A stretch of 64,000 nucleotides of DNA from positions 1 to 64,000 of the forward strand of contig NZ_JACJUK010000004.1 in NCBI RefSeq assembly GCF_014235875.1, written 5' to 3'. Positions 5,982-47,932 of this stretch are shown in pieces. Under the pieces are notes generated by a model, which saw only the letters and a program-made list of their open reading frames with translations, was not told the origin of the DNA and did not search any database. The DNA comes from Croceivirga lutea (GTDB lineage Bacteria; Bacteroidota; Bacteroidia; Flavobacteriales; Flavobacteriaceae). The position numbers and the translations under genes were made by a program. Positions within the stretch are counted from its first letter, which is position 1, and each line of letters begins with the position of its first letter.

Positions 5982-6026
5982 CTAAAATATTCTAATTTCA
6001 ATCTTGACGTGTCCTGTACCATACTG
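5982..6026 (-). promoter_or_regulatory. Shared-regulon promoter A, ulvan lyase unit
   Basis: On the minus strand CAGTATGGTACAGGACA (6026-6010) is followed by exactly 20 bases and then TATTTTAG (5989-5982), one base off the TAnnTTTG -7 box. The start codon at 5961 is about 20 bases further on. The same arrangement occurs at six other places in the window. Confidence 0.75.
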
Positions 6027-6100
6027 AAACGGAATTAGGTTTAGAGCTTTCAAGAATACAGAAACCGGTTTTTAGTACTAGGAATTCATCCTCCCATCAC

Positions 6101-6139
6101 ACTACAGGATAAATAGAAGCATGTGCTTCCATAAGTTTG
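6101..6139 (+). promoter_or_regulatory. Shared-regulon promoter E, GH2 gene
   Basis: ACTACAGGATA (6101-6111), 20 bases, then TAAGTTTG (6132-6139), a perfect match to the Bacteroidota -7 box. The placement means transcription starts after about 6145. The in-frame ATG at 6121 is therefore upstream of the transcript, which decides the GH2 start at 6172. Confidence 0.78.
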
Positions 6140-6171
6140 GTTCTTGTGATGAACGCTTTAATTTTTACATT

Positions 6172-9100
6172 ATGCGAATTAAGTTTTGGATGTTTTTGGT
6201 GGGATGTCTTCTCATTTGTACCACTTATTCCCAACGAACCGAAATCAATTTCAATAAAGACTGGAAGTTTGTTTTAGAGGATGATTCTGAATTTTCTACT
6301 TTATTATTGGATGATTCATCGTGGGATGAATTGAATATTCCCCATGACTGGTCTTTTGAAAAAGGCGTTCGTAAAGGTGGTGACCAGGGCCAAGGTGGTG
6401 GTTACCATGATGGCGGTATAGGTTGGTATCGGAAAACATTCAACATAGAGGAACAGACCTTAAACAATACTGTTTATATTGAATTTGATGGGGTATATAT
6501 GAATAGTGAGGTGTGGATAAACAGCCATTATTTGGGTAAACGACCCTATGGATATATCAGTTTTCGATATGACATTTCCAAACATTTAAAACAAGGTAAA
6601 AATACAGTTGCGGTAAGGGTGGACAATAGTTTAGAACCTTCGGCCCGTTGGTATCATCCTTGTGGGATTTATGCACCAGTTCGCCTTATAGAAGTGAATC
6701 CAACCCATATAAGTCCTAATGGAATTTTTGTTACCACTCCTAAAATTGATATGGCCTCAGGTTCCGTCTTGGTAGATTTATCCTTAACAAACGTTACTCA
6801 AGAAATCCAGGTGGAACAAACTATACAATCACCTGATGGAAGCGAAGTGGCCAGCGGCATTGAAGTAATATCCTTCGGTCAAGAATCTGTTCTAAGTGAA
6901 ATGACGGTCGCCAAACCAAAATTATGGAGTCCGGAAACACCCACACTTTACACACTGATTAGCAGAATAAGGAGAAACGGAAACTTGCTTGATGAAAAAA
7001 TCACCAAATTTGGTTTTAGAACTGTGGAATGGAAAACTGAGAGTGGCTTTTGGCTCAATGGTGAAAACATAAAGCTAAAGGGAGTTTGTGAACATTGGGA
7101 AGGCGGCCCGGTAGGTGGCGCTTGGACCAAGCCAATGTTACGTTGGAAATTGCAGTTGTTGAAAGATATGGGCATCAATGCCATACGCCCATCGCACAAT
7201 CCTACACCTCCAATGTTCTATGACATTTGTGATGAAATTGGCCTTTTAGTGATAGATGAAATTTTTGATGGATGGCATAAAAAAGCCCCGGAAGACTACG
7301 GTAAACAAGCCTTTAATGAATGGTGGCAGCGTGATGTGACGGAATGGATTACCCGAGACCAGAACCACCCCAGTATTTTTGTATGGAGTTTAGGCAATGA
7401 AACCCATAGCGATATTGCTGCTCAGCTTGTAAAATTTGGTAAATCACTGGATTCAACAAGACTGTTTACCTCGGGGGCCGGTAATCCGGAAGACATGGAC
7501 ATACAAGGTGTAAACGGTGGTTCTGAGACCAAATCTTTTATTGAAAGTAAAATCTTAGACAAACCATTTATTTCTACAGAAGCTCCTCATACCTGGCAAA
7601 CTAGAGGGTATTATAGAACACAAACGTGGTGGAGAGATAATGAGTTGCCAGGAACCTATGAACTCCCCAATCTTACAGAAAAGGAAATTTTCTTTTATGA
7701 AGGTTTAAATCCAAAGGATTGGAAAAACAGAAAACAGCGCTTCAATTCCTCCTATGATAATGCCACGGTGCGGGTTTCTGCAAGAAAATATTGGGAGGTT
7801 ATGCGAGATACCCCCTGGCACAGCGGTCATTTTAGATGGACAGGTTTTGATTACTACGGCGAGGCTGGACTGGTTCATGGCGGACTACCATTCAACCTCT
7901 TTATGGGTGGTGCCATTGATGTTGCAGGTTTTAAAAAAGACCTATATCATTTTTATCGAAGCCAATGGACTAAGGAGCCCATGATACACATGTTACCACA
8001 TTGGACACATCCTAGAATGAAAAAAGGAACAAAAATTCCGGTTTGGGTTTATTCTAACACAGATGAAGTGGAACTTTTTCTAAATGGAAAATCCTTGGGT
8101 AAAGATTCACCCGGAACCATCTGGAAAGAAATGCAATGTGAGTGGATAGTGCCCTATGAAGATGGCACTATAGAAGCTGTTGGTTATATTGATGGTAAGG
8201 AAGTTAATCGAACTTCATTTTCCACAGCGAAGCAACCTGTTAGACTGAAGAATACCCTTAATAAATTAAAGGCAGAAGATGGTTTTTTGGCTAGTTATAT
8301 ATTAACTTCAGAAGGCGTAGACAAATACGTAAAACTTTTTCCTTATGCCGAAAATAGAGTGTATTATCACATAGCTGGTGATATTCAAAAAATATCCATG
8401 GAAAATGGAAATCCTATTGACCCTACTAGTAGAACAAAAGCTAACTTTAGAAGTATGTTTTTTGGTAAAACTAGATTGTTTTTAAAAGAAGTTCAAAAAA
8501 CACGAGAAATAGCTATAACAACAGGTGCTATTTTGGGTGATAAGGCTTTATACACTTCTAATAGGATATCCATAGATGTACAAACACTTAGCACATCAGG
8601 TAAACAAAAGCCAGCAGACTTTAAGATTTTATATACCCTAAATGGTAAAAATCCCGTAACAGATGGTATACCTTACACCTTTCCCTTTGAAATAAAAAAT
8701 GAGACTAAGATTACAACTGTTAGAGCAGTTGTTATCCAGAAAGGTGAAATTATTTTGAATATGGAAGAAAGTTTTGGAAAAAACGAGGGCTTGTTTTGGG
8801 GAGATGAACACTCTGCTGATATGTGGATTGGTAGAGGTATAAACATTGCCGCCGAAGATGGTATTTTGACAGGAGCCGCTGTTCCAAGTAGGAATGCACA
8901 TCGTTTTAAAGGATCAGGTTTTGTAGATTTTAAAAAAGGAGAAGGTTCAATAACTTGGTACCAAGAAAATGATGGAGAACCTGGAGATTACAGCATTCGT
9001 TTTAGGTATATGCACAATAATGAGGAAAAGTTACATCCTATGAAATTGTATGTTAATGACGAATTTGTAAGGAAAATTGAATTTAAACCTACTGGAGGCT

Positions 9101-9219
9101 GGGACAAAGAATGGAAGTTTTCACCTACTATAATTACTTTAAAATCAGGAGCCAACACTATTAAATTAGAGACAATAGGAGAGAGCGCTCCTTACATAGA
9201 CGAATTATTTATTGATTAA
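6172..9219 (+). CDS. GH2 family glycosidase with C-terminal CBM-like domain
   Basis: Taken from ATG 6172 the product is 1015 residues with a signal peptide (MRIKFWMFLVGC to YSQ). It has the GH2 plan: jelly-roll sugar-binding domain with IGWYRKTF, immunoglobulin-like domain, then a TIM barrel. SLGNETH holds the acid/base Glu (about 410). ISTEAPHTW holds a likely nucleophile Glu (about 470) in an atypical setting, since many members read TEYG. A DUF4982-like segment follows, and the last 130 residues resemble a CBM6/35 beta-sandwich. GH2 enzymes of this kind act on beta-galactosides, beta-glucuronides or related sugars; a uronide or xyloside in ulvan oligosaccharides is plausible. It is transcribed alone from its own promoter. 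Confidence 0.85.
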   Translation: MRIKFWMFLVGCLLICTTYSQRTEINFNKDWKFVLEDDSEFSTLLLDDSSWDELNIPHDWSFEKGVRKGGDQGQGGGYHDGGIGWYRKTFNIEEQTLNNTVYIEFDGVYMNSEVWINSHYLGKRPYGYISFRYDISKHLKQGKNTVAVRVDNSLEPSARWYHPCGIYAPVRLIEVNPTHISPNGIFVTTPKIDMASGSVLVDLSLTNVTQEIQVEQTIQSPDGSEVASGIEVISFGQESVLSEMTVAKPKLWSPETPTLYTLISRIRRNGNLLDEKITKFGFRTVEWKTESGFWLNGENIKLKGVCEHWEGGPVGGAWTKPMLRWKLQLLKDMGINAIRPSHNPTPPMFYDICDEIGLLVIDEIFDGWHKKAPEDYGKQAFNEWWQRDVTEWITRDQNHPSIFVWSLGNETHSDIAAQLVKFGKSLDSTRLFTSGAGNPEDMDIQGVNGGSETKSFIESKILDKPFISTEAPHTWQTRGYYRTQTWWRDNELPGTYELPNLTEKEIFFYEGLNPKDWKNRKQRFNSSYDNATVRVSARKYWEVMRDTPWHSGHFRWTGFDYYGEAGLVHGGLPFNLFMGGAIDVAGFKKDLYHFYRSQWTKEPMIHMLPHWTHPRMKKGTKIPVWVYSNTDEVELFLNGKSLGKDSPGTIWKEMQCEWIVPYEDGTIEAVGYIDGKEVNRTSFSTAKQPVRLKNTLNKLKAEDGFLASYILTSEGVDKYVKLFPYAENRVYYHIAGDIQKISMENGNPIDPTSRTKANFRSMFFGKTRLFLKEVQKTREIAITTGAILGDKALYTSNRISIDVQTLSTSGKQKPADFKILYTLNGKNPVTDGIPYTFPFEIKNETKITTVRAVVIQKGEIILNMEESFGKNEGLFWGDEHSADMWIGRGINIAAEDGILTGAAVPSRNAHRFKGSGFVDFKKGEGSITWYQENDGEPGDYSIRFRYMHNNEEKLHPMKLYVNDEFVRKIEFKPTGGWDKEWKFSPTIITLKSGANTIKLETIGESAPYIDELFID

Positions 9220-9232
9220 AAAAAGAACTTAT

Positions 9233-10585: not shown

Positions 10586-10733
10586 ATGGCTAAAACGTTC
10601 ATCTAAACAAAAGTAGATAGATTTAGTAACGAAACTAGAGCCATTATATTTATTCTAAAAAAATTATAGAATGATACGCTGTAAAATTCAGATAATCAAT
10701 TTTTTAATGCTAAAACTATATCACCTTGCCAAA

Positions 10734-10773
10734 CAGTACAGGATACAATTTAATACACCTTAAAGTACATTGG
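10734..10773 (+). promoter_or_regulatory. Shared-regulon promoter B, GH106-to-RhaM operon
   Basis: CAGTACAGGATA (10734-10745), 20 bases, then TACATTGG (10766-10773), one base off TAnnTTTG. The GH106 ATG at 10792 follows within 20 bases. The in-frame ATG at 10726 lies upstream of the promoter and cannot be the start. Confidence 0.77.
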
Positions 10774-10791
10774 TTCACTTTCAGTTGTTTT

Positions 10792-13700
10792 ATGAAAAAC
10801 CCTGTTTTTGGTATAAGGTATTTATTTTTTTTTCTTTTAATTTCATGTGTTGGAGGCAACATGTCTAATCAAGACTTAGAATTAGCATTTAAAAACCCAC
10901 CAAAAGAAGCACAGCCCAGAACGTGGATGCATGCCATGAGTGGCAATATGTCCAAAGATGGTATAACCAAAGACTTAGAAGCTATGGCAGAAGTTGGTAT
11001 AGGTGGCTTTTTACTGTTCAATGTTACGCAGGGCATTCCGAACGGACCCATTATTTATGATTCTGAAGAACATCACGAAATGATAGCCCATGCCGCAAAG
11101 GAAGCGGAACGACTGGGGTTGAGCTTTGGGGTGCATAATTGTGATGGTTGGTCGTCAAGTGGTGGGCCATGGGTTACCCCAGAAGAGTCTATGAAAATGG
11201 TGGTTTGGAGTGAATCACAAGTTTCAGGAGGTGAAGTGGATATACAATTGTCCGTCCCAACAAAACGAAAAGGTTTTTACAAGGATATCGCCGTTCTCGC
11301 CTACCCAAGTTTGGAGGGCGAATTGGATGATGCCAAAAACCGTCCTACCGTAAAAGCTTCGGATAGAACGACGGATATTCGATTGATTACCGATGGAAAG
11401 GTGGATGCCGAATCCATACTACACAAACAAAAGAATGCCAATCCGTGGTTGCAATTCAATTATGACCAGGATAAAACCATTCGTTCCGTAAAAGCTGTTT
11501 TCAATGATAGAAGGGCTACTGCGATACTGCAGACCAGTAAAGATGGCATCACCTTTAAGGATGAACGCGAGTTGTTCAAAGTCCGCACTGGTAAAGGAGA
11601 ATGGGCCATAAACGACCATTTTGAAGGCATTACTTCAAAGATTTTTCGCTTGCAGTTCAACCAAACAACGACGCTTAAGGAGGTAGAATTGACAAGCACT
11701 TACTACCTTAATAATCCTCTGGGTAGAACTTCCATTGCCAGAACGGAAGACCATGTCTTGGCACCCATTGGTCATCCTGAGGAAATTATGGTTATTGACA
11801 AGGGGGCCATCAAAGATTTAAGCGGGATTATGAACGCCGATGGAGTTTTAAAAACAGAACTCCCCGAAGGCGATTGGACCATTCTTCGTTTTGGATATAC
11901 CTCAACGGGAGCCTTCAACAATCCGGCCTCAGATGAAGGACGCGGATTGGAAGTCGACAAGTTGAGTCGCCCCGCGTTTAAAAAACACTATGATGCCTTT
12001 TTAGGGCAGGTTGTTGAAAACACAAAAGAACTAGCCCCAAATGCACTACAGTATGCTGAGATTGACAGTTATGAAATGGGAGGCCAGAACTGGACAGTTG
12101 GTTTAGACAGTATTTTTAAAAGCGAAAAGGGTTATGACCTTATCAAAATGTTGCCTTTAGTGGCTGGGCGTTTTGTGGAAAGTGCAGCAGCTTCAGAAGC
12201 CGTGCTTTATGACTATAGGGACGTCATTACCAATTTGATGACCAAAAATTACTTTCAATATTTTACGGAACTCTGTAATGCCCATGGCATTCAAAGTTAT
12301 ATTGAACCCTATGGTTTTGGTCCTTTAAACGATTTGGACGTAGGTGGGGTCACTGATATTCCCATGGGAGAATTTTGGATGAGCCGTCCTATTACCCAAA
12401 CGGCCTCTGCAGTCTCTTCAGCGCATATTTACGGTAAACCTGTGATTTCTGCGGAATCGTTCACCTCTACACCGCAAATCAATTGGAAAGGGCATCCGGC
12501 CATGGCAAAGACGTCTGGTGATTTGGCTTGGACTTATGGAATCAATGAGTTTATGTTCCATCGTTTTGCGCACCAGGCCAATATTCATGCCGAACCGGGA
12601 ATGACCATGAACCGTTGGGGATTTCACTTTGACCGCACCCAAACTTGGTGGAAGAATGCCGGAAAGGACTGGTTCAATTATATTGCACGAGGTTCCCATA
12701 TGTTACGTCAAGGAGTTCCAGTGGCTGACATGCTGGTCTATATTGGGGAGGGCACTCCAAATTCATCCTATTATCGGAACGATTTTAAACCTGCTATTCC
12801 CAAGCAACTCAATTTTGATAATGTCAATACCGATGTATTATTGAACCGATTACAAATTGATGGGAATAAACTAAAGCTTCCGGAAGGCAATACCTACCGT
12901 ATTCTGGTACTAAAAAATACAGAAACGCTCTCTTTAAAAACGCTGAAAAGGTTATTGGAAATTGCCAAGGCAGGCGTACCCATTGTAGGTGAAAAACCGG
13001 AAAGATTATCCGGATATCATCCTGAAAAAGAGGATATAGCAAGTTTTAATAAAACAGTTACAGAGCTTATAAGTTATATCGGTGCAACTACAGATTGGCA
13101 AAAACTGATGCAAAAGGCCAAGCTACTCCCAGACATGAATATTTTAAATGGTGAGGCGGTGGATTATGCGCACCGAAAAACGGACAATGAGGATATTTAT
13201 TTCTTTTTTAATGCGGATAGTATTGCCAAAACCTTTGAAGCTTCCTTTCGGGTGGTTGATAAAATTCCTGAATTATGGAACCCTATGACGGGTGAGGTGA
13301 CCAAATTGGCCCAATTTAAAAGTAACCACGAAAATACGGTTACCAATATTCCATTAGAGGTTGGTGAATCGGTTTTCGTGGTGTTTCGAGAAGCTACAGA
13401 CGGTATCGTTTCAGTTAAAGATTCTGAAGGAAATCTTTCGTTGCACTTATCGGAAGATAATCAAATACGAGCTAGAACCACGGCAACAGGCTTTTATGAA
13501 GTACCATTGTCAAATGGCGATACTTGGAATTTTTCGGTGACGGAAATACCTCCTGCAGTGGATATCTCCAAAAATTGGCAAGTTACTTTTGAAGAAAAAA
13601 GTGGTTATGGCGGCACAGTACACTTTGATTCCCTTATCGATTGGAGCAAACATCCATTGGATTCCATCAACTATTATAGCGGTACAGCCAGATACCAAAA

Positions 13701-14142
13701 ACAATTTGAACTGTCTAAAAATCAATTGGGCCATAACACCAATATTTCCTTGGATTTGGGTACGGTTTATATCGTTGCTGAGGTTCTCATTAATGGCCAA
13801 AATGTAGCTGTCTCGTGGATGCCACCTTTTACGTTGGATATTACAAAATTCGTAAAGGAAGGAACGAACACCATAGAACTACTAATAACCAATCAATGGA
13901 GCAATCGATTGATAGGTGATGAACGTTATCCGGCCAATGATGGAGAATATCAATTAGGGCCACATAGAGCAACCAATTTAACCATGCCCGCATGGTATAC
14001 CAATAATGAGCCAAGGCCAAAGGGAGAACGGACCACCTTTACTACGGCACCATTTTATAAAAAAGATGACCCGCTAATGCCTTCTGGATTAATTGGCCCA
14101 GTAACAATTAACTTTTCCAAAATTATATCGTACAACCAATGA
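10792..14142 (+). CDS. GH106 alpha-L-rhamnosidase, lipoprotein
   Basis: From ATG 10792 the protein has 1116 residues and a lipoprotein signal (FFFLLISC). The opening PRTWMHAMSGNMSKDGITKDLEAMAEVGIGGFLLF is the typical start of the GH106 TIM barrel, and FGVHNCDGWSSSGGPWVTP, YAEIDSYEMGG and ISAESFTS are further family segments carrying the likely acidic active-site residues. The C-terminus (about 930-1116) is a galactose-binding-like beta-sandwich. Members remove terminal alpha-L-rhamnose from oligosaccharides. The enzyme is probably anchored to the outer or inner membrane facing the periplasm. It heads a nine-gene operon and its stop overlaps the next start (ATGA). Confidence 0.88.
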   Translation: MKNPVFGIRYLFFFLLISCVGGNMSNQDLELAFKNPPKEAQPRTWMHAMSGNMSKDGITKDLEAMAEVGIGGFLLFNVTQGIPNGPIIYDSEEHHEMIAHAAKEAERLGLSFGVHNCDGWSSSGGPWVTPEESMKMVVWSESQVSGGEVDIQLSVPTKRKGFYKDIAVLAYPSLEGELDDAKNRPTVKASDRTTDIRLITDGKVDAESILHKQKNANPWLQFNYDQDKTIRSVKAVFNDRRATAILQTSKDGITFKDERELFKVRTGKGEWAINDHFEGITSKIFRLQFNQTTTLKEVELTSTYYLNNPLGRTSIARTEDHVLAPIGHPEEIMVIDKGAIKDLSGIMNADGVLKTELPEGDWTILRFGYTSTGAFNNPASDEGRGLEVDKLSRPAFKKHYDAFLGQVVENTKELAPNALQYAEIDSYEMGGQNWTVGLDSIFKSEKGYDLIKMLPLVAGRFVESAAASEAVLYDYRDVITNLMTKNYFQYFTELCNAHGIQSYIEPYGFGPLNDLDVGGVTDIPMGEFWMSRPITQTASAVSSAHIYGKPVISAESFTSTPQINWKGHPAMAKTSGDLAWTYGINEFMFHRFAHQANIHAEPGMTMNRWGFHFDRTQTWWKNAGKDWFNYIARGSHMLRQGVPVADMLVYIGEGTPNSSYYRNDFKPAIPKQLNFDNVNTDVLLNRLQIDGNKLKLPEGNTYRILVLKNTETLSLKTLKRLLEIAKAGVPIVGEKPERLSGYHPEKEDIASFNKTVTELISYIGATTDWQKLMQKAKLLPDMNILNGEAVDYAHRKTDNEDIYFFFNADSIAKTFEASFRVVDKIPELWNPMTGEVTKLAQFKSNHENTVTNIPLEVGESVFVVFREATDGIVSVKDSEGNLSLHLSEDNQIRARTTATGFYEVPLSNGDTWNFSVTEIPPAVDISKNWQVTFEEKSGYGGTVHFDSLIDWSKHPLDSINYYSGTARYQKQFELSKNQLGHNTNISLDLGTVYIVAEVLINGQNVAVSWMPPFTLDITKFVKEGTNTIELLITNQWSNRLIGDERYPANDGEYQLGPHRATNLTMPAWYTNNEPRPKGERTTFTTAPFYKKDDPLMPSGLIGPVTINFSKIISYNQ

Positions 14143-17006
14143 TTCACCAAATAAAAAATAGACCTATTCCTGTCCATAAAATGCTTCTGACCTTTTTGGT
14201 TATGATGGTGTTGGCTGGCTGTGAAAGCAAACAAGAAATTAGTTCCCTAACTTTTGTAAAAGCTACCACTGATTACAAGGAGAATCCGATAGCCATCGAA
14301 AATGAAAAACCGCAATTCTCATGGGTGGTCAATGCCGATGGGTTCAATCGCTCGCAAACGGCCTATCATATTTTGGTGGCCACCGCTGAGGAACTATTGA
14401 ATGAAAACGAAGTGGATAGTTGGAATTCAAATAAAGTGCAGAGTGCATCATCCACCTTTGTGGATTACGCAGGTTCAACCTTACAACCCACGCAAACTTA
14501 TTATTGGAAAGTCAAGATTTGGGATGAGAACGGAAAGCCTTCGGATTGGTCTGAAGTGCAACAGTTTACCATGGGCTTGATGAACGAAGCCAATTGGGGA
14601 GCGGCCAAATGGATAACCTTGAACCAAGACAACAGAACATCGCCACATCGTTTTCGGGATTATAAAACGGGGAAAATGGATAAGCCAACGCCCGTAGAAG
14701 GTTTTGCGGCCAGTTATTTTAGAAAGGAAGTCAATCTAAATAAAGAGGTGAAAAATGCGGAAGCCTATATCTGTGGTTTGGGCTATTATGAACTATACCT
14801 AAATGGAGAAAAAGTAGGAGACCAGGTGTTGGATCCCGCACCCTCCAATTACGATAAACAAGCCTACTACGTGAAATATGATATTACGGAAGCGATTGAA
14901 TCAGGAGAAAATGCCTTAGGCATTATCATGGGCAATGGCTTTTACGGGCAGAACATTTCTTGGAAAAACGACCCGGAATCTGAACGCGATTTGGCCTACG
15001 GACCACCAACAGTAAAACTAGCGGTCAAAATCACCTATACCGATGGTTCTAAAGAAGATTTTTATACAGATAATACGTGGAAGGAATCCACAGGCCCTAT
15101 CGTGTTTAACAACATTTACGGTGGGGACACCTATGACGCCAGTTACGAAATCAATGGCTGGAACAACGTAGGATATGAGGATACGACTTGGGGGAATCCG
15201 AAAGAGGTAACGCCCGTAGTCGGCAAACTCAGCGCACAACAAATTCCCCCGATTAAAAAATTACAGGAACTTGAACCACAAAAAGTGTTCAAAGGGGCTG
15301 ATGGGGAATGGATTGTTGATTTCGGCCAAAACATAGCGGGATGGGTAAAATTGAACGTTTCCGAAAAAGAGGGACAATTGATACAAATTACAACAACCGA
15401 AGCTTTGCTTACTGATGGTAGTGATATCTTTCAAGGGTCAACGGGCGGTGGGGCCAATGGCATGCCCCAAATATATAAATACATCTGTAAGGGTGAAGGA
15501 TCCGAATCTTGGGAACCCAAATTCAGTTACCATGGTTTTCGATACGCCAAGGTAAAGGGAGTTTCTAAACAACCCGATGCTGAAATGATAAAGGCGGTCT
15601 TGGTAGCGACAGATGTTGAAGAAACAGGAAGTTTTACTTCTTCGGAAGAACTGTTCAACAAAATGCACATCATCAGCAAATGGACGATTCAGGACAACCT
15701 TCATGGTATACCCGAAGACTGCCCGCATCGTGAAAAATGCGGTTGGTTGGGTGATGCCCATGCTTTTGCCGAGTATGCGCTGTACAATTATGACATGTAC
15801 GATTTCTACAAAAAATATATGGAGGACATCCGTACACAAATGCGGCCGACCAAAGGAACCAACGACCCAGATATCTCATTTCAAGTACCTACTATGATTG
15901 CTCCGGGCAAACGTACCTCTACCTACGCAAAAATTGATTGGGGCGTGGCTACTATGTATTTACCATGGTACAATTACGTGTATTATGGTGATGATTCCAT
16001 CATTATGGAGTACTATGACGAAATGAAAAACCTGACGGATTTCTACCTGAATTTCAAGGGTGAAAACGGCATAATGCAAGACGGTATGGGCGATTGGTGT
16101 CCGCCCTTATGGGATCGCAGAAAAAACCCAAGCGCGATGGAGACCGACCCTATCATCTCGGCCAACGCGTATTTCTACGATGTTTTGGGTATTATGGAAA
16201 AGTTTGCTGAAATGAATGATGATCTTGACTATGTCGCCCAAATGAAGACGGAAAAAGAGACGTTGAAAGAAGCCTTTAATAGTGAATATTTACGGCCCAT
16301 TCCTAATACTCAATACAAATGGTATTTAAGTCAAACGGCAACGGTACAAGCCTTACAGTTTGGATTGGTTCCTGAAAACGAAATTGAAAATGTGGTCAAT
16401 GGTTTGGCCCACAATATCGTTGAAGTAAAAGGAGGGCACCACGCTACGGGTATCCATGGCAATCGCTATATCTACACCGTACTTGCCGCCTACGGAAAAG
16501 CCGATTTGGCCCATGAGATATTGACAACACCCGAATTTCCGAGTCAGACCTATGTGATGAATTCGGGCTTTACCACTTGGCCAGAACGTCAATTTATCTG
16601 GGAAGAAATGGTGGGCCCGACCAATTCATTAAACCACCCGATGCATACGGGTTTTGCCACCTATTTTTATGAATCTTTAGGGGGAATTAAATCTTCCAAA
16701 GAAAATCCGGGGTATAAAAAATTTGTGGTCAATCCGAAATTTCCCAGTCAGATTACAAGTACGGATGTTTCTGTTCCTACCCCGTATGGAGATATTACAA
16801 ACAAATGGAAAATAAACGGCACTAGTTTTGAAATGGAACTGAGCGTACCGTTCAATACTACTGCTATACTGCCATTGACCGAAGATGAGAAGAAAACCTT
16901 GCGTATCAATAATGAAAATCCGGAAGCTTATGGTACTGCCGATTCCACAAGTTCTTCTGTGCAATTAGGCTCAGGGGAGTATAAAATAACCTACACAAAA
17001 TCATGA
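14139..17006 (+). CDS. GH78 alpha-L-rhamnosidase, lipoprotein
   Basis: The 955-residue product has a lipoprotein signal (VMMVLAGC). Its domain order matches bacterial GH78: an N-terminal beta-sandwich (FSWVVNADGFNRSQTAYHILVA), further beta domains, an (alpha/alpha)6 barrel and a C-terminal beta domain. DCPHREKCGWLGDAHAF carries the Asp-Glu-Asp residues of the family active site. WEEMVGPTNSLNHPMHTGFATY carries the later conserved Glu. It cleaves terminal alpha-L-rhamnose. ATG 14139 overlaps the GH106 stop by four bases, which favours this start; ATG 14181 would give a shorter signal peptide. Two rhamnosidase families in tandem imply different linkages or sulfation contexts. Confidence 0.92.
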   Translation: MIHQIKNRPIPVHKMLLTFLVMMVLAGCESKQEISSLTFVKATTDYKENPIAIENEKPQFSWVVNADGFNRSQTAYHILVATAEELLNENEVDSWNSNKVQSASSTFVDYAGSTLQPTQTYYWKVKIWDENGKPSDWSEVQQFTMGLMNEANWGAAKWITLNQDNRTSPHRFRDYKTGKMDKPTPVEGFAASYFRKEVNLNKEVKNAEAYICGLGYYELYLNGEKVGDQVLDPAPSNYDKQAYYVKYDITEAIESGENALGIIMGNGFYGQNISWKNDPESERDLAYGPPTVKLAVKITYTDGSKEDFYTDNTWKESTGPIVFNNIYGGDTYDASYEINGWNNVGYEDTTWGNPKEVTPVVGKLSAQQIPPIKKLQELEPQKVFKGADGEWIVDFGQNIAGWVKLNVSEKEGQLIQITTTEALLTDGSDIFQGSTGGGANGMPQIYKYICKGEGSESWEPKFSYHGFRYAKVKGVSKQPDAEMIKAVLVATDVEETGSFTSSEELFNKMHIISKWTIQDNLHGIPEDCPHREKCGWLGDAHAFAEYALYNYDMYDFYKKYMEDIRTQMRPTKGTNDPDISFQVPTMIAPGKRTSTYAKIDWGVATMYLPWYNYVYYGDDSIIMEYYDEMKNLTDFYLNFKGENGIMQDGMGDWCPPLWDRRKNPSAMETDPIISANAYFYDVLGIMEKFAEMNDDLDYVAQMKTEKETLKEAFNSEYLRPIPNTQYKWYLSQTATVQALQFGLVPENEIENVVNGLAHNIVEVKGGHHATGIHGNRYIYTVLAAYGKADLAHEILTTPEFPSQTYVMNSGFTTWPERQFIWEEMVGPTNSLNHPMHTGFATYFYESLGGIKSSKENPGYKKFVVNPKFPSQITSTDVSVPTPYGDITNKWKINGTSFEMELSVPFNTTAILPLTEDEKKTLRINNENPEAYGTADSTSSSVQLGSGEYKITYTKS

Positions 17007-17767
17007 AAAGAACTTGTCTGAGACCATTCGTTATTGCATTGCTTTATGTGATAACCTCCGCATGCAGTTCTGATGCTGTTTCAGAAGAACCCGTAGAAGA
17101 ACAGCAAGAAGAAATGGAGGAAGCAGTCGACGAAACCGAAGATACCACCGTAGACAATACTCCCGACGCCCTAACTTATCTAGAGAGAAACGGCATAGTC
17201 AGTGTTGAGTTTGAAACAGTGGCAGGCGAAATTGAATGGGAGCGCGGTAACCAACTTAGCGGTTTTGATGGCGAGGGATATTTGGTTTGGAACCAAGCTG
17301 ATAGTTTCCAGACACCCGGTAATGGAATATTGACCTACAAATTGAACATTGCTACACCAGGCACTTACCAATTTGTTTGGCGGTCGCGAATTACCGAAGG
17401 CGATACCCAATCTGAAGCCAATGATTCATGGTTACGGTTCAATGATGCCGCTGACTTTTTTGGGCAACGTGAAAACAGTATTGTATATCCTAGGGGAAGT
17501 GGAAAAACACCCAACCCCGAAGGTAGCAGTGCTGACGGATGGTTCAAAATATATATGAACCGTGTAGGCGAATGGTTTTGGAGGTCAAATACCAGCGACA
17601 ATAACCCCCATGACATTTTTGTGACATTTGAATCATCGGGTATTTACACGATGGAGGTTTCTGGTCGTTCCCAATTTCATGGGTTGGACCGATTTGTATT
17701 GTTTACGGGGTCGGCCACCTTGACCGATGCCCAAAATGCGGAACGCAGTGAAATCGTTCAGCCTTAA
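17003..17767 (+). CDS. Lipoprotein of unknown function with a carbohydrate-binding-like domain
   Basis: The 254-residue product has a signal ending YVITSACSS, an acidic spacer rich in Glu and Asp (residues 28-55), then a single all-beta domain. Segments such as NGILTYKLNIATPGTYQF and HDIFVTFESSGIYTMEVSGR resemble CBM6/35-like sandwiches that end in a ligand edge strand. No catalytic motif is seen. It overlaps the GH78 stop (ATGA) and precedes GH43. A surface glycan-binding lipoprotein helping SusD is a reasonable inference, but the family is not recognised. Confidence 0.7.
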   Translation: MKRTCLRPFVIALLYVITSACSSDAVSEEPVEEQQEEMEEAVDETEDTTVDNTPDALTYLERNGIVSVEFETVAGEIEWERGNQLSGFDGEGYLVWNQADSFQTPGNGILTYKLNIATPGTYQFVWRSRITEGDTQSEANDSWLRFNDAADFFGQRENSIVYPRGSGKTPNPEGSSADGWFKIYMNRVGEWFWRSNTSDNNPHDIFVTFESSGIYTMEVSGRSQFHGLDRFVLFTGSATLTDAQNAERSEIVQP

Positions 17768-17782
17768 ATTGTAACTAGTACT

Positions 17783-19147: not shown

Positions 19148-19171
19148 ACAGGAATAAAACAACGAACACTT

Positions 19172-21427: not shown

Positions 21428-21456
21428 ACAAGAACATAGAAATCAATACAACAAAT

Positions 21457-23783: not shown

Positions 23784-23811
23784 CATTGCTATTTAAAAAG
23801 AGTACCGAAGA

Positions 23812-25515: not shown

Positions 25516-25560
25516 CAGTACGGTACAGGATATCAAAATGTTCAAGTCTTTTTATTATTG
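25516..25560 (+). promoter_or_regulatory. Shared-regulon promoter C, unknown toroid protein
   Basis: CAGTACGGTACAGGATA (25516-25532), 20 bases, then TATTATTG (25553-25560), one base off TAnnTTTG. The element is nearly identical over 17 bases to promoter A in front of the ulvan lyase. The start codon at 25594 follows 34 bases after the -7 box. Confidence 0.76.
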
Positions 25561-27513: not shown

Positions 27514-27529
27514 GTGAGTTTCATTGCCC

Positions 27530-27571
27530 GTTAGTGCAGGACGGTTCACCAGTGAATTAATTGTAAAATTG
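27530..27571 (+). promoter_or_regulatory. Shared-regulon promoter G, acid-sugar operon
   Basis: GTTAGTGCAGGACG (27530-27543), 20 bases, then TAAAATTG (27564-27571), one base off TAnnTTTG. The element differs from the consensus at the third base (GTGCAGGAC for GTACAGGAT), so this copy is weaker. Spacing is exactly as in the others. Start codon at 27637. Confidence 0.6.
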
Positions 27572-35200: not shown

Positions 35201-37609
35201 TCATTCTTTTGCTATGTTCAGAAAAGTGCCTTTGAAACTTTGATTGAGAACAGTTGCTTTTATGGCCCTTTCAGTACCATCGGGAATGATTTCTACCGAG
35301 GCCCTGCCATTGGCCATGCCAATAATGGAGCTGCCCGTTGGGGTGCCTTGGTCTTTAAGAAGGGTGCCACCTTCCAAACACTGAAAATAGACCTTGTCTT
35401 CATAATCTAGACAACGCAAACCATCTTTGTCAACAGCGGTTGCAGTCATTAAAAAACTTCCGTTTTCTAAAGGTTCATAAGATAACTGTAGTGCTTTAGC
35501 AGCACCATTTTTTTGGTAGCGATAATTCACTTCTAGGGTATCTTTTACGGTTCCCTGTTGTGTTTTTCCGATAGCTATAAGTTCATTTGCCCCTTCTTTG
35601 AAATCTATTTCCCAGACCAGTCCAGATGCTGGAAATTTGGAAATATCCTTTGTTTTCGTGCCTAAATCGATACCATTATGGGTAAGTTTAACTTCATTGC
35701 AATTACTAAATACACTAATCTCACGAGATTTGTCTGCAGGCCCTTGACGTTCTGTCCATGTTTTGGATTCGATATATACAAAAGGGTCGTTGCTCCAGTA
35801 ACTTTTAAACACGTAGTACGCATCCTTTGGTTTTCCATTGCGGTCTACCAACCCCTTTTGGTTCATGTACGGAATATCATTTTCTGGGCGCAGTGGCGTA
35901 CCAAAATCTTTGAAGGCCCATTGGGCATTGCCTACAAAAGTGGAATCTTGTTCTGTAATGCGAAGGTGCCAATCAAAAAGGTCAACAATATAATTTTCAC
36001 TCCAATCCCCAATTTGGGCAATATTCGTCACTTTAGTCTGTACGATGGCCTCTTCCCATCCATCAGAATTAATAACACCCTCACCCGTAATCGGGTTCTC
36101 TGTATGTCGCCCCACATGGCTCGAACCACCGTATTCGGTATGTAAAAAATGATTGTATTGCGGTTTGTAGGTATCAATGGCTTTTTGGTAGCTTTTGTAA
36201 CTGCCCGAATACCACCCTGACCATATCGATGGTGAAAAGACATCTACGATATCCGCGCCCTCATAATACTTGCGGATAGCGGTTTTTCTGGTAGGGTCCA
36301 ATTCATGGGCAATATCATTTAACTCGGTCAGAAATGCATTCATTCTATCGGTATCATCACCATTCTCAAAATCAGGCAGCCAATACATTTCGTTGCCCAA
36401 AGACCAGATAATAATACTTGGGTGGTTGTAGTTTTGGTCAATAATTTCGCGAAGCATGTTTTTTGTGTTCGTCTGCCATACTTCTTCACCTAAGCCTCCA
36501 CGGCACCACGGCAATTCATCCCAAACCAGAATTCCCAATTCATCACAGGCCTGATAAATTTCGGGGTCTTGCGGGTAGTGTGCCAAGCGGATAAAATTGG
36601 CACCCATTTCCTTAATTTGTTCGATGTCTTTTCGGTGTTGGGCATTGCTCATCGCAGCGCCAACGCCGGCGTGTTCTTCATGCCGATGGGTACCCCGTAG
36701 CAATACCCGTTTTCCGTTGAGGTAAAAAGGGCCATTCTTCTTAAACTCAAACCAGCGAAAACCTACTTTTTCGGTAATCTGGTCGATTAGGATGTCGTTT
36801 TCAAATAATGAAAGGGCTATCTCATAGAGATTAGGGGCATCGATATCCCACAATAACGGTTTTTCAATATTGAATACTTCAATACTGGCGCGCTCGCCGT
36901 CGAGATTTTGTTCCATCGTTTTAACCACCTCACCATTCGGATTCTTCAATTCAGCCTTAAGCTTGAAACTCTTGCCGTTTTCCAGTCCCGCAACAGGAAC
37001 GTTTATTTTCAAGCTAGCATTTTCACGAGAAACTTCGGGCGTGGTCAATTTCACTTTTCCTATGAATACTTTAGGTTTGGTAACCAACCAAACGTCTCTT
37101 GTAATACCGCCATAAATAAAAAAGTCACTTTTTTGTGAAGGAATAACATCGCGATTGTAACCATTGTCTACACGAACCAAAATGGTATTTTCTCCTTTCT
37201 TCAAGTAAGGCGACATAGCAACCTCAAAACCAATATAGCCGCCAATATGGCCACCAGCTTTCTGCCCGTTTACATAAACCGCCGTAGTGATGTTGGCTCC
37301 TTCGAAGTAGAGGCTGTAGTCAGCGTTCGAATCAATTTCATCAAATGATAGTACTTTTTTGTACCAACTGCCGCTTCTTCGGTATCCTGCCTGATTATCG
37401 GTCGGGTCTTCGGTATTCCATGTATGCGGTAGGTCGATACTTTCCCAGCTTTCTGCTCTTTGTACATCAGCGATAGTTTTTGAATCATTTTCAAGATATG
37501 ACCATTCTTGATTGATATTTGTCTTGACTCTCAAGGCTTTGTCAGCGCTTTCATTTTGGCATCCTGAGATAAAAACGAACAGAAAAAGAACAATTGGAAG
37601 TACTCTCAT
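35201..37609 (-). CDS. GH2 beta-glycosidase (galactosidase/glucuronidase type), lipoprotein
   Basis: The 802-residue protein has a lipoprotein signal (FLFVFISGC). The GH2 domains follow in order: sugar-binding jelly roll (LPHTWNTEDP, GSWYKKVL), immunoglobulin-like domain, TIM barrel with FYLNGKRVLLRGTHRHEE. The acid/base Glu lies near 405 in WSLGNEMYW and the nucleophile Glu near 492 in HTEYGGSSH. A C-terminal DUF4982-like part follows. It cleaves non-reducing beta-galactosides or beta-glucuronides in the periplasm. Unlike the GH2 at 6172-9219 it has the canonical nucleophile context and no added CBM, so the two are not recent duplicates. Own shared-type promoter upstream. Confidence 0.9.
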   Translation of the reverse strand: MRVLPIVLFLFVFISGCQNESADKALRVKTNINQEWSYLENDSKTIADVQRAESWESIDLPHTWNTEDPTDNQAGYRRSGSWYKKVLSFDEIDSNADYSLYFEGANITTAVYVNGQKAGGHIGGYIGFEVAMSPYLKKGENTILVRVDNGYNRDVIPSQKSDFFIYGGITRDVWLVTKPKVFIGKVKLTTPEVSRENASLKINVPVAGLENGKSFKLKAELKNPNGEVVKTMEQNLDGERASIEVFNIEKPLLWDIDAPNLYEIALSLFENDILIDQITEKVGFRWFEFKKNGPFYLNGKRVLLRGTHRHEEHAGVGAAMSNAQHRKDIEQIKEMGANFIRLAHYPQDPEIYQACDELGILVWDELPWCRGGLGEEVWQTNTKNMLREIIDQNYNHPSIIIWSLGNEMYWLPDFENGDDTDRMNAFLTELNDIAHELDPTRKTAIRKYYEGADIVDVFSPSIWSGWYSGSYKSYQKAIDTYKPQYNHFLHTEYGGSSHVGRHTENPITGEGVINSDGWEEAIVQTKVTNIAQIGDWSENYIVDLFDWHLRITEQDSTFVGNAQWAFKDFGTPLRPENDIPYMNQKGLVDRNGKPKDAYYVFKSYWSNDPFVYIESKTWTERQGPADKSREISVFSNCNEVKLTHNGIDLGTKTKDISKFPASGLVWEIDFKEGANELIAIGKTQQGTVKDTLEVNYRYQKNGAAKALQLSYEPLENGSFLMTATAVDKDGLRCLDYEDKVYFQCLEGGTLLKDQGTPTGSSIIGMANGRASVEIIPDGTERAIKATVLNQSFKGTFLNIAKE

Positions 37610-37640: not shown

Positions 37641-37682
37641 TAAAGCTAGGGTTTGGTGTATTGGTTCCTATCCTGTACTATC
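37641..37682 (-). promoter_or_regulatory. Shared-regulon promoter D, GH2-lactonase unit
   Basis: On the minus strand GATAGTACAGGATA (37682-37669), 20 bases, then TAGCTTTA (37648-37641), one base off TAnnTTTG. The GH2 ATG at 37609 lies 31 bases beyond. It drives the two-gene unit 34051-37609. Confidence 0.77.
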
Positions 37683-37713
37683 TAGCTATCAATTAAAACC
37701 ATTGGTTACGAGC

Positions 37714-43499: not shown

Positions 43500-43597
43500 A
43501 AGTTTAGTTTATTTAGTTAGTAACTTAAAATCAGTTTTAAATTTGCCTGTCTTGTATGTATGAAATAATACCGCAGCATAGGCAATTAAAACCTTTT

Positions 43598-43605
43598 CAA
43601 AACTA
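43598..43605 (-). promoter_or_regulatory. Candidate -7 box of the susC promoter
   Basis: The minus strand reads TAGTTTTG, a perfect TAnnTTTG, 98 bases before the SusC start. There is no GTACAGGATA element 20 bases upstream of it, so susCD seems to be controlled differently from the enzyme operons. A single octamer match in AT-rich DNA is weak evidence. Confidence 0.35.
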
Positions 43606-43687
43606 TCATAATAGAGGTTTTTAAAAGTTCAGAAATAGGGGTTAAATAATACAAAAACCTAAAAATTTGGGGGATATGATTATGATT

Positions 43688-46600
43688 TTAATTTAAATCG
43701 AAGAAGTTTTCAGAAAATTTCTGAATATAAGCTGTTGGACTTAGATTATATTTTTTTTGAAAACATTTACTAAAATACTTGGGGTTATTAAAACCAACTA
43801 GATAGCTTATTTCCGAAATATTTAAGTTCCCCTGTTCCAATAGTTCAGCGGCCCTTTTCAATCTTAGTTCTTGTATAAATTCGTTGGGTGTGCAATTTGT
43901 CCAAGCTTTAATTTTTGTAAACAACAAAGTTCTGCTTACACCCAATTCTGTGGCAAATGTGATAATATCAAAATTGGCATTGGAGATGTTACTTTCTACA
44001 ATTTCTAATGCTTTTTTCAAAAGATTTTCATCCATTGACGATGCCACAATTTCATTAGCAAGTAAGCTTTGTTTTTCAGAAAATTTGGTGCGCATTCGTT
44101 TAGACGAATCAATTAGGTTTCTAATTCGCAGTTTAAATTCTGTTATGTTAAATGGTTTACTTATGTAATCATCGGCCCCATTTTCAAGACCTTCAAACTT
44201 ATATAGCAGAGCTGTTCTAGAGGTTAAAAGGACAACGGGTATGTGACTGGTTTTTAAATTTGATTTTAATTTAGCACATAATTCAGTGCCAACCATTTCT
44301 GGCATAATAACATCAGATATTACCAGGTTTAGGTCATGTTTTAGAGCTTTCGACAATGCTTCTTTACCATCACCAGCTTCTAAAATATTGTACTTGTCTT
44401 TAAGAAAATCTTTTATAAAATTCCTCAAAGGCACGTTATCTTCAACCAAAAGAATTGTGTCTTTTTGTTTTTCTTGTAATAAATCTTCAGTACCAATTAA
44501 AGCATCAAAATCACTCTTAATAAGTTGAGACTTATACAAACCTAAATCATCACTGAATTTGTATTCATGGTTGATTTCATTTAGCTCAATGTGATTTTTC
44601 CCTAATTTTAAGCGGACCTTGAATATTGCACCACTATTTTGAGCATTGCTTACACTGATATCTCCTTTATGCAGGTCTACTATACTTTTAGCTATAGATA
44701 ACCCTATACCTGTCCCAGAACCTTTTGCATTTGCAGGTTTTTGAAATTCTGGTATTTCAAAAAATCGGTCAAAGATTTTTTCCTTGTAATCGTCAGGTAT
44801 TCCTGTCCCGGAGTCAGTTATACAAATTACAATATTCTCTTGGTCTTTTTGTACTTCAATTTGTATATCACCTCCGGCTGGCGTGTATTTAAAGGCATTG
44901 GAAATTAAGTTGTAGAAAACCTGTTCTAACTTGGGCCTATCATAATAGACCAGGATTTCTTCTTCTTCGGAATAAAATTTATAGGAAAAACCGTTGCATC
45001 TTGCATATTCTGAAAATGATAAATAAATTTCTTTTAAAAACTTTACAATATTGCCTTCGGCCGCCTCTAAGGTATATTTTTGGTGTTCAAGTTTTCTAAA
45101 GTCCATTAATCTATTAATCAATTGTAAAAGTCTATTTGCATTGCTTTCTATCACCAATAATTTTTTATAGACTACACTACTGCCCTTATAATCAGTTAAT
45201 AACTGCTGCAAAGGGCCAGTAATAAGGGTTAAGGGTGTTCTAAATTCATGAGAAATATTTGTGAAAAATTGCAACTTTGCGTCATTTAGAACTCTGTTTT
45301 TTTCGTTTTCAACATGTTCCAATTCTAAACGGTGTTTCAGTTTTGTTCTTGAACGTATAATACCGGTTAGCCAAAATAATATGGCTAGAACGGTCAAGAA
45401 ATATAGGGTAATTGCCCAATTGGTTAACCAGGGTGATGGGTCAACATTTATTTTTAAGGATGTTGGATTGTTGTTCCATACCCCATCATTATTCGCTCCT
45501 TTTACTTCGAATATGTAATTACCCGGTCTTTGTATTATAAAATTGGCACTAGGTGTATTGGTAAGAATCCAATTATCCTCTAAGCCAAGCATACGATACT
45601 TATAGTAATTACTATTTGAGTTGATGTAATTTGGAATGGAAAAATCAATAGAAAAGTTTGTGTTTTTATGGTCAAGGTTAATGGTTTTGGTAAACGAAAT
45701 ATTCTGCGTTAAAACACCATTGTTTTGATTAACTTTTACGGTTTGGTTTTTGAGTTTAAAATCGGTTAAAATTACTTGTGGGCTATAAGAATTTGTAGTT
45801 AGCTTGTTTTCGTCGAAGATTGATACACCATTTGGCCCTCCAAATAGAAACTTTGATTGCCCTTGCTTTAAAGCTGCTCCACTGCTGAATTCATTACCGA
45901 CCAAACCATCTTTTTCAGAATAATTTTGGAATGTTCTGTTGTTTATATCATATTTAATTAATCCTTCATTACTGCTCAACCACATAGTATTATCATTACC
46001 TTGAAGCATAGCATATATTGAAGTGATATCACTTGCGGTGTTTATGGTAACCTTTTTAAAGGTGTTTCCATTAAATCTAAACAGCCCCTTTGCCCTTGTG
46101 CCGACCCAGATAACACCTTTTGTATCTTGGAAAAGGGTTAAAACATCCTCTCCAGAACTTGTGTTTATATCGTAAAAAAAGCGCTTTATTTGAACTCTAT
46201 TGTTTGCAGAATCAGAAATTGTCAATAGATTTAAACCGCTTTGGGTTCCCACCCAAACGTTAGAGTTTTTATCTACCATTAAACAACGAACTCTGTTACT
46301 AGATAGACTCTTTTCAGAATTGGTTTTGTTTCTGTAATTGAAGATTGATTTGTCTTTAAGATTATATCGCCAAATACCTTTACCAAAGGTGCCTATCCAA
46401 ATTTCATTATTAATACCTTTAGTTATTGCATATATTCCAGTGTTCTCTAAAAGTGAATTAAGTTCTTTAGAAACTAAATTTGGTTCTTGCTTGTTCTTTT
46501 TTAGATTGAATGTTTCAATACCCTTGTCAAACGTTCCAATCCAGAGTATATCTTGTTCAATTAGAAGTGATTTTATATTGTTGCTTTCTAAAAAATTGGT

Positions 46601-47794
46601 ATTGGAGGTATTCAGAAATTTGGTTTCGTTATAATTGGTATTTAAGATAGTAATTCCACCACCTTCGGTTCCAAAATATAAGTTGTTATAGCTGTCTTCT
46701 ACTATTGAACTAACTACTTTATGAGAAAGTCTTGTTTTACTATCAGATTCTGTAAGATTAATAAAATTAGTGTTAGATTCATCCCAAATGTCAATTCCTC
46801 CATAGTATGAGCCAATCCAAATTGAACCTTTACGATCTTTAAAAACAGACTTAATATAGTTATGGCTTAAGCCATTATCATCATTTGGGTCATACTCAAG
46901 TCGTTTCACGTGTTTTTCTGGACTAATAATAGCAATACCTATAGAGGTGCCTACCCATAATTCTCCATTATTGCCTGAAATTATAGCTCTTACATCTTCG
47001 GATTGTTCTAATAGTTTATTTTGTATAAATGATTCGGATATCAAATCAAACTGCAACAATCCTAAGTTTTTTGTACCAATACAAATGGTGTTGTCATCGC
47101 AAAGAGACATATTTTGAACGTATGGATAATCTTTACTATGTAATGGCGAAATTGACTTGAAATTATAAGAATGATTATCCTTTTTACTTGCTTTAAATAA
47201 GCCCTTAGAAGTTCCTATCCATATTGTACCATTTTTTGCTTGCTTTATACTCAAAATAAAATTAGATGAAAGTTGATCATCTTTTACAAATTCTTTGAGC
47301 TGATAATTAGTAAAATGATTTGTTTTTTTATTGTAAATACTTAAACCATTTGCTGTGCCAATCCAGAGTTTGCCATCTGCTGTTTCTTCTATTGCCCAAA
47401 CAGAATTGTCACATAAAGAATTTTTATCTGCATAGTGATAGTATCTTGTAAATGAATCTTTTTTAGGGTCATATTTATTTAGGCCGTTGTAGGTTCCAAT
47501 CCAAATATAACCTTGAGAATCTTCTTTTATACTTAAAATATCACTGTTGCTGATTGTAGTACTGTCAGATGGATTATTCCTAAATATTCTAAAACTACTA
47601 CCATTATATAGGTTTAACCCATCACGTGTACCTAACCACATTCTATTCAATTTATCTTGCTCCATGGTAATTACCGAACTTTGAGAAAGTCCGTCAGAAG
47701 TACTAAGATGATTAAATATATATGGGTTATAATTTTCTTGTGAAAAAGTGGTAATTACAATTAATAAATTCAAAAAGATGAACAGAGATTTCAT
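43688..47794 (-). CDS. Hybrid two-component system regulator (sensor kinase, receiver and AraC-type output in one chain)
   Basis: The 1368-residue protein is a complete HTCS. After a signal peptide (1-18) come two seven-bladed propellers of Reg_prop repeats (WIGTxxGL patterns such as MWLGTRDGLNLYN) and a Y_Y_Y domain (about 710-780). One membrane helix follows near 787-812, then HisKA with His about 849 in FFTNISHEFRTPLTLI. HATPase has NLISNAFKYTP and GTGIGLSIAKS. The receiver domain (about 1113-1230) carries the phospho-Asp in VISDVIMPEM, and a C-terminal AraC helix-turn-helix ends with FNNPKYFSKCFQKKYNLSP. It binds an oligosaccharide in the periplasm and activates PUL genes. It is the best local candidate to bind the shared promoter element; that link is inferred. 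Confidence 0.95.
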   Translation of the reverse strand: MKSLFIFLNLLIVITTFSQENYNPYIFNHLSTSDGLSQSSVITMEQDKLNRMWLGTRDGLNLYNGSSFRIFRNNPSDSTTISNSDILSIKEDSQGYIWIGTYNGLNKYDPKKDSFTRYYHYADKNSLCDNSVWAIEETADGKLWIGTANGLSIYNKKTNHFTNYQLKEFVKDDQLSSNFILSIKQAKNGTIWIGTSKGLFKASKKDNHSYNFKSISPLHSKDYPYVQNMSLCDDNTICIGTKNLGLLQFDLISESFIQNKLLEQSEDVRAIISGNNGELWVGTSIGIAIISPEKHVKRLEYDPNDDNGLSHNYIKSVFKDRKGSIWIGSYYGGIDIWDESNTNFINLTESDSKTRLSHKVVSSIVEDSYNNLYFGTEGGGITILNTNYNETKFLNTSNTNFLESNNIKSLLIEQDILWIGTFDKGIETFNLKKNKQEPNLVSKELNSLLENTGIYAITKGINNEIWIGTFGKGIWRYNLKDKSIFNYRNKTNSEKSLSSNRVRCLMVDKNSNVWVGTQSGLNLLTISDSANNRVQIKRFFYDINTSSGEDVLTLFQDTKGVIWVGTRAKGLFRFNGNTFKKVTINTASDITSIYAMLQGNDNTMWLSSNEGLIKYDINNRTFQNYSEKDGLVGNEFSSGAALKQGQSKFLFGGPNGVSIFDENKLTTNSYSPQVILTDFKLKNQTVKVNQNNGVLTQNISFTKTINLDHKNTNFSIDFSIPNYINSNSNYYKYRMLGLEDNWILTNTPSANFIIQRPGNYIFEVKGANNDGVWNNNPTSLKINVDPSPWLTNWAITLYFLTVLAILFWLTGIIRSRTKLKHRLELEHVENEKNRVLNDAKLQFFTNISHEFRTPLTLITGPLQQLLTDYKGSSVVYKKLLVIESNANRLLQLINRLMDFRKLEHQKYTLEAAEGNIVKFLKEIYLSFSEYARCNGFSYKFYSEEEEILVYYDRPKLEQVFYNLISNAFKYTPAGGDIQIEVQKDQENIVICITDSGTGIPDDYKEKIFDRFFEIPEFQKPANAKGSGTGIGLSIAKSIVDLHKGDISVSNAQNSGAIFKVRLKLGKNHIELNEINHEYKFSDDLGLYKSQLIKSDFDALIGTEDLLQEKQKDTILLVEDNVPLRNFIKDFLKDKYNILEAGDGKEALSKALKHDLNLVISDVIMPEMVGTELCAKLKSNLKTSHIPVVLLTSRTALLYKFEGLENGADDYISKPFNITEFKLRIRNLIDSSKRMRTKFSEKQSLLANEIVASSMDENLLKKALEIVESNISNANFDIITFATELGVSRTLLFTKIKAWTNCTPNEFIQELRLKRAAELLEQGNLNISEISYLVGFNNPKYFSKCFQKKYNLSPTAYIQKFSENFFDLN

Positions 47795-47890
47795 AAGGTG
47801 TAAAAACTAATAAGCTATTCTGAAACATTCAAGTAGCTATTTCTAATATAAAATTGATAATTCTATAAAAACGTATCACATTTAAAACAA

Positions 47891-47932
47891 GATACAACAG
47901 GATGGGTAAACTTTATTCACTACCTAATTTTA
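47891..47932 (+). promoter_or_regulatory. Shared-regulon promoter F, uronate/TRAP operon
   Basis: GATACAACAGGATG (47891-47904), 20 bases, then TAATTTTA (47925-47932), one base off TAnnTTTG. It is a weaker copy of the shared element (CAACAGGATG for GTACAGGATA). The leader would be about 105 bases to the ATG at 48045, longer than in the other six cases. Confidence 0.58.

Follow-up and report, generated by a model that had tools for sequence, protein, structure and literature searches.

The window, by which we mean the whole 64,000-nucleotide stretch of DNA that was analysed, holds an ulvan lyase gene, numerous glycoside hydrolase genes, the gene of a toroid-type protein and a run of uronate and TRAP-transporter genes. 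A short operator followed by a -7 box lies before these genes at six places (A to F), and a weaker candidate (G) was not accepted:

6010..6026, minus strand: operator A, CAGTATGGTACAGGACA, matrix score 29.5
5982..5989, minus strand: -7 box of A, TATTTTAG
5035..5961, minus strand: PL28 ulvan lyase gene (PF22826), the first gene behind A
6095..6111, plus strand: operator E, CATCACACTACAGGATA, matrix score 29.0
6132..6139, plus strand: -7 box of E, TAAGTTTG
6172..9219, plus strand: GH2 gene behind E, with its probable start
10729..10745, plus strand: operator B, CCAAACAGTACAGGATA, matrix score 21.8
10766..10773, plus strand: -7 box of B, TACATTGG
10789..25134, plus strand: GH106, GH78, GH43, GH3, GH88-type and further genes behind B, from profile matches and gene order
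25516..25532, plus strand: operator C, CAGTACGGTACAGGATA, matrix score 29.1
25553..25560, plus strand: -7 box of C, TATTATTG
25594..27513, plus strand: toroid-type protein gene behind C, with homologues in ulvan loci
27527..27543, plus strand: candidate operator G, weak and not accepted, CCCGTTAGTGCAGGACG, matrix score 13.7
27564..27571, plus strand: -7-like box of G, TAAAATTG
37669..37685, minus strand: operator D, CTAGATAGTACAGGATA, matrix score 27.0
37641..37648, minus strand: -7 box of D, TAGCTTTA
35201..37609, minus strand: GH2 gene behind D
47888..47904, plus strand: operator F, CAAGATACAACAGGATG, matrix score 27.1
47925..47932, plus strand: -7 box of F, TAATTTTA
48045..55688, plus strand: uronate and TRAP-transporter genes behind F

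All scores come from a weight matrix trained on other genomes only, with a maximum of 37. The GH2 gene behind E probably starts near 6172, as a signal-peptide-like stretch suggests, and not at 6121, since a start there would put the box of E inside the gene. The genes behind B, judged by their order, and those behind F probably form one operon each.

The initial annotation described seven elements, each exactly 20 bases before a box that matches five or six of six fixed positions, and this description proved accurate. Six of the window's 14 copies of ACAGGAY are followed at a spacer of 20 by a box (at most one mismatch); all six stand upstream of genes, and they are A to F. Spacings between 8 and 40 other than 20, 32 in number, yield three such pairs in total, and in 40 window versions drawn from a first-order Markov model the mean at spacer 20 is 0.125 (maximum 1), which rejects chance as the origin of A to F. 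A scan of the whole genome agreed, finding element and box (at most one mismatch) together at eight places, five of which are A to E. The longer word GTACAGGAYA is found 10 times in the 3.45-Mb genome, five of them within the window and one of these five intragenic.

Site G is weak and was not accepted as an operator. Its score is 13.7: hits of at least 13.7 arise in the Markov versions 0.125 times on average and at most once per version (matrix applied to CAGNA words only), and wrong spacers in 275 kb of real DNA from the same genome give 1 to 5 matches scoring at least 14. In addition, its orthologue in a close relative (G176) contains no CAGGAYR word. The proposal of one operator before seven units thus stands, far beyond chance, for A to F and is not supported for G. 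The assignment of the acid-sugar operon to ulvan metabolism rested on G and loses its support with it. The prediction that the toroid gene belongs to ulvan metabolism was supported, with homologues in the ulvan loci of all seven genomes examined and the operator directly before the gene in seven of eight; in the eighth (G152) the toroid gene follows GH106. The protein itself has no Pfam or NCBIfam match. Homologues with 47-81% identity are present in ulvan loci from Flavobacteriaceae, Flammeovirga, Labilibacter and Saprospiraceae records.

Repeat structure and promoter spacing of the operator

PL28 ulvan lyase is present in 20 of 397 genomes of the family, the genome of the window included, and in 33 named loci. 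Across 62 ulvan-lyase loci from other genomes, the element and box match 67 times at a spacer of 20 and 1 to 10 times at each of 17 other spacings (12 to 29); several of these loci share a genome or belong to near relatives, and the p values treat them as independent. Removal of three duplicates leaves 64 distinct sites, whose column table gives the true form of the element as a 17-bp tandem repeat, CAgkAyA-N3-CAGGAyR, with a period of 10. Besides the two 7-mers, spaced 10 bp apart, and the -7 box, little else is kept, and nothing further is conserved upstream. The consensus given at first captured the promoter-side half and mostly missed the first repeat. The table has no visible symmetry; a palindromic operator was rejected in favour of a direct repeat, in which each unit spans one helical turn, the units follow head to tail and the 17 bp end 20 bp before the -7 box.

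The spacing remains when sites are chosen blind to the box. With the 17-bp part as the sole criterion, 117 operators were selected, from loci that overlap the matrix training set in part; a box follows at 20 in 85 of them and in at most 7 at any other spacing, and 19 have no box at spacer 20. In the regions fetched from 11 genomes the distance between site and open reading frame is mostly no more than 80 bp; a few sites are farther away or have no reading frame found. Among orthologous loci, the close relative G176 keeps A, B, C, D and F at spacer 20, with weak versions of A and D (scores 12.6 and 13.8). No counterpart of the gene behind E turned up in the stretches fetched from G176, and the region upstream of the D orthologue of G152 has no CAGGAYR word. 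Taken across genomes, the spacing counts support the idea of one shared operator at a rigid distance from the box.

A GntR-family regulator as candidate binder

In the genome of the window the full pattern (at most two mismatches) has 12 matches, namely A to F, two sites beside a GntR gene, three on contig C17 and one on contig C12:

59953..63822, minus strand: probable tail of the rhamnose operon, from gene order, with the same order in G268
C14:68716-68732, minus strand: operator of the rhamnose operon, just outside the window
C14:68688-68732, minus strand, and C14:69943-69987, plus strand: full-pattern sites flanking the GntR gene
C14:68822-69862, plus strand: GntR-family regulator gene beside the rhamnose operon, 4.8 kb past the window
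C17:117559-128674: three full-pattern sites
C12:70605: full-pattern site before a second rhaEW-type gene

The first site on C14 and that on C12 each precede one of two copies, 88% identical, of an aldolase/dehydrogenase fusion (PF00596 and PF00106), a layout termed RhaEW (PMC3870299). A rhamnose-isomerase-like gene adjoins the C14 copy (TIGR02629, 504 bits, below the cut-off of 647). Gene order makes it probable that this rhamnose operon extends into the right end of the window (63822-59953). Together these sites suggest that A to F are likely operators of one rhamnose/ulvan regulon, and because such a regulon covers rhamnose catabolism, the inducing signal is likely derived from rhamnose. Elsewhere in the genome, C17:105620-157005 carries operator-like sites, a stand-alone AraC gene (147176) and GH3-like and partly GH78-like genes, and is perhaps a second rhamnose-polymer locus.

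The distribution of the operator suggests that its most likely binder is the cytoplasmic GntR-family regulator at C14:68822-69862, whose layout looks AraR-like, with a C-terminal part akin to sugar-binding proteins. The N-terminal winged helix of this protein is clear (PF00392, 47.9 bits, cut-off 27), and its DNA-binding domain resembles that of AraR (4egy, E 3.5e-8). The C-terminal LacI-type domain barely exceeds the threshold (PF13377, 27.8 bits against 26.5) and is without a match in the homologue P0002; a structure prediction for two Saprospiraceae GntRs reached a pLDDT of 46.9, too low to use. Of the 22 genomes in our first set, all carry a P0002-type GntR at E≤1e-15 and 20 at E≤1e-80; the stricter threshold leaves out G341, at 27% identity and with no copy of the motif, and G246, at 40% and with four copies.

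Taking a P0002 match at E≤1e-80 as presence, 79 of 397 family genomes are GntR-positive. At least three motif copies are found in 67 of these 79 vs 6 of the 318 GntR-negative genomes (Fisher p 7e-56, kinship ignored), and at least one copy in 79 of 79 vs 101 of 318. Five of the six exceptions (G033, G106, G225, G246 and G314), with three to four copies and no GntR at this threshold, count against the assignment; the sixth (G108) carries a GntR of the V class described below.

The rhamnose pathway is rejected as the sole cause of this association by the rhaEW-bearing genomes, in which at least three copies are found in 66 of 78 with GntR vs 1 of 16 without. We fetched the rhamnose regions of 15 of these 16, G108 among them (G298 was left out). 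Five have a V-class GntR with its own operator version and two a distant E-class GntR with CAGGA, and the other eight have no neighbouring GntR and no operator at their rhamnose promoters, the best words carrying one to three mismatches (G024, G037, G247, G249, G272, G291, G325 and G327, the last from a fetched stretch of 628 bases only). Where GntR lies elsewhere in the genome, the operator stands before the rhamnose genes in seven of seven cases (G396, G196, G364, G115, G311, G061 and G129).

Single loci point the same way. G268 has the motif throughout its ulvan region and a GntR gene divergent from rhaEW; it has no close HTCS, no copy of the stand-alone AraC-type regulator P0001 and only three AraC-type HTH matches. 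In a Saprospiraceae PL28 locus (L084) a divergent operator lies about 50 bp from the start of a GntR gene. Operators also lie near P0001 genes, which counts against the GntR: the counts near regulator genes are 19 operators in 121 kb for GntR, 6 in 50 kb for P0001 and 7 in 211 kb for HTCS, with means at wrong spacers of 6.5, 1.0 and 0.7, respectively.

Furthermore, the class of GntR pairs with the version of the operator. From 89 stretches, 22 lacking a rhaEW start and 15 having rhaEW but no GntR, 52 with both remained, in which one recognition-helix position is E in 46 and V in 6. One E-class stretch (G127) had no operator, leaving 45 for comparison. Base 4 of the second repeat is G in 45/45 E-class and A in 6/6 V-class operators, and base 4 of the first repeat is A in 2/45 and 6/6, respectively; the V-class G307 departs at one further base (second repeat CATAACA). 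The genome of the window holds both pairs, C14 with CAGGACG and C12 with CAGAATA. Two rhamnose-type gene sets are found there (C14:64000-69862 and C12:69556-77113), each with a GntR of a different class and the matching operator version.

The V-class proteins form a single clade (support 100/100), so the pairing represents one evolutionary event, and the two classes differ at many residues. Two E-class GntRs that are as distant from the protein beside the window (42-43% identity) as the V class is (42-46%) keep CAGGA. In 6 of 11 stretches with paralogues of an F/Y class, in which the E is missing, CAGGAYR-like sites occur nearby, and therefore the recognition-helix residue alone does not set the base; these sites may be read by an E-class protein or by the F/Y-class protein itself. 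A change in both repeats would fit two like helices reading the DNA head to tail. L-class paralogues (SRDTVLMA; L311-L316 and L319, seven genomes) have no such operator in the fetched stretches.

Searches of the openly accessible literature on rhamnose or ulvan and GntR in Bacteroidetes/Flavobacteriaceae turned up no description of a regulon of this kind. The main text of PMC3870299 names AraC, DeoR and LacI regulators of rhamnose and contains no occurrence of "GntR".

Mode of action and related systems

A box centred at -7 would place the site between about -48 and -32, its midpoint falling near -40. Class II activators bind around that position, and the spacing counts place the operator at a fixed position beside the core promoter, a class II feature. 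Its exact distance to the -7 box argues for contact with the polymerase. The earlier proposal that an element over the -33 region fits an activator is thus supported by the position of the site. The argument from a missing -33 box is weaker than stated: global RNA-seq of Flavobacterium johnsoniae, as reported in PMC7366714, identified no -33 motif, so that its lack at A to F proves little.

On these grounds we think it reasonably probable that A to F are read by the GntR regulator acting as an activator. The two winged-helix domains of one dimer would sit on the two repeats in the same orientation, and the protein, with its midpoint near -40, would respond to rhamnose or a derivative of it and contact RNA polymerase as a class II activator. 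The HTCS may serve the susC promoter instead. Put more broadly, and tentatively, since the full statement seems to us a little less likely to be right than wrong, a Bacteroidota GntR/LacI-type chimera would read a 10-bp-period repeat head to tail, replace -33 contacts as a class II activator and, as a single sugar sensor in the cytoplasm, couple extracellular ulvan breakdown with rhamnose catabolism, and a paralogue clade would have shifted both repeats from CAGGA to CAGAA, one genome keeping both.

The alternative that deserves most attention keeps the same protein and operators and makes the GntR a repressor on the upstream edge of the promoter, released by a rhamnose-derived ligand. Bacillus subtilis AraR, with the same domain layout, is a repressor (by its PDB name), and the operator overlaps the -33 region, as that of a repressor could; yet a repressor needs no exact spacing to the -7 box, and the spacing is exact over many promoters, which leaves repression unlikely, though worth serious consideration.

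Several known systems share features with the proposed activation by the GntR regulator. The AraR subfamily has the PF00392 winged helix and a sugar regulon in common with it, and also a LacI-type C-terminal part, for which the match in the present protein is marginal. The AraR operator is palindromic; here the operator is a direct repeat with a 10-bp period, the targets are rhamnose and ulvan genes, the position is activator-like and the lineage is Bacteroidota instead of Firmicutes. Palindromes are described as the targets of most GntR proteins (PMC5320631). The MocR group (GabR, TauR, PdxR), as well as NanR, FarR and NagQ, are GntR proteins with direct-repeat operators, and activation of divergently encoded genes is described for some of the MocR group (PMC5320631, PMC4494728). 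In contrast to the present case, the repeats of MocR operators are separated by two or three turns, not one, and we saw no aminotransferase domain here. DeoR-family rhamnose regulators use direct repeats with a 10-11-bp period before rhamnose genes (PMC3870299) but belong to a different protein family and are known from other lineages. Bacteroides HTCS and AraC-type RhaR regulons likewise comprise polysaccharide and rhamnose loci with direct-repeat operators; their repeats are about 21 bp apart, and these regulators do not follow the motif.

If control of the ulvan genes lies with a rhamnose-sensing GntR and not with the local HTCS, induction would track intracellular sugar, and one DNA pattern would predict genes for ulvan and rhamnose polymers, such as that of the toroid protein, across many Flavobacteriaceae. 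The natural pairs of GntR class and operator version would open the reading of direct repeats by GntR proteins to study, and the fixed distance would supply a promoter rule in a phylum whose primary sigma factor is unusual.

AraC-type regulators and other candidate binders

Binding by the stand-alone AraC-type regulator P0001 (own copy at C17:147176) appears very improbable to us. Its genes lie in or near the ulvan loci of several genomes, and 5 of 13 loci have operators close by, but it is present in 13 of 22 genomes and absent from five that are motif-rich (G045, G070, G265, G268 and G164), and the AraC-type rhamnose sites described for other lineages have a 21-bp period (PMC3870299).

The initial annotation had favoured the local HTCS, binding through its AraC-type output domain:

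43688..47794, minus strand: HTCS, the first proposed binder, not supported as such
43500..43690, minus strand: susC upstream region, with no operator but a TAGTTTTG box and another block

The scan of window proteins turned up no other regulator, and site F separates the HTCS gene from the uronate operon. Against this, matches at E≤1e-290 occur in 24 of 79 GntR-positive genomes, all of which have at least one motif copy (14 of 20 from the first set, 10 of 59 others), and in none of the five motif-rich genomes named above. In addition, the susC promoter beside the HTCS gene has no element in three of three genomes (best score at most 1.6), and the sites predicted for HTCS regulators have an average period of 21 bp (PMC3878776), the element one of 10. 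We consider this candidate highly improbable. A further regulator, co-inherited with the rhamnose genes and GntR, is the least credible binder of all, for although DeoR-family rhamnose regulators have direct repeats of 10-11 bp (PMC3870299), GntR class pairs with operator version in both repeats and all eight rhamnose promoters without GntR lack the operator.

The susC upstream region (43500-43690) is itself a candidate HTCS target. Its block ACCCCTATTTCTG and the TAGTTTTG box are shared with G176 and, to a lesser degree, with the more distant G152. In eight genomes a GntR of the same family lies directly upstream of an HTCS relative on the same strand, and the two may cooperate there:

G071 C1:3107796-3113034: GntR-HTCS pair
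G339 C1:2810997-2816232: GntR-HTCS pair
G152 C1:464740-469951: GntR-HTCS pair
G145 C11:65541-70813: GntR-HTCS pair
G044 C1:123950-129234: GntR-HTCS pair
G271 C101:7851-13069: GntR-HTCS pair
G374 C1:271601-276895: GntR-HTCS pair
G383 C1:1415229-1420429: GntR-HTCS pair
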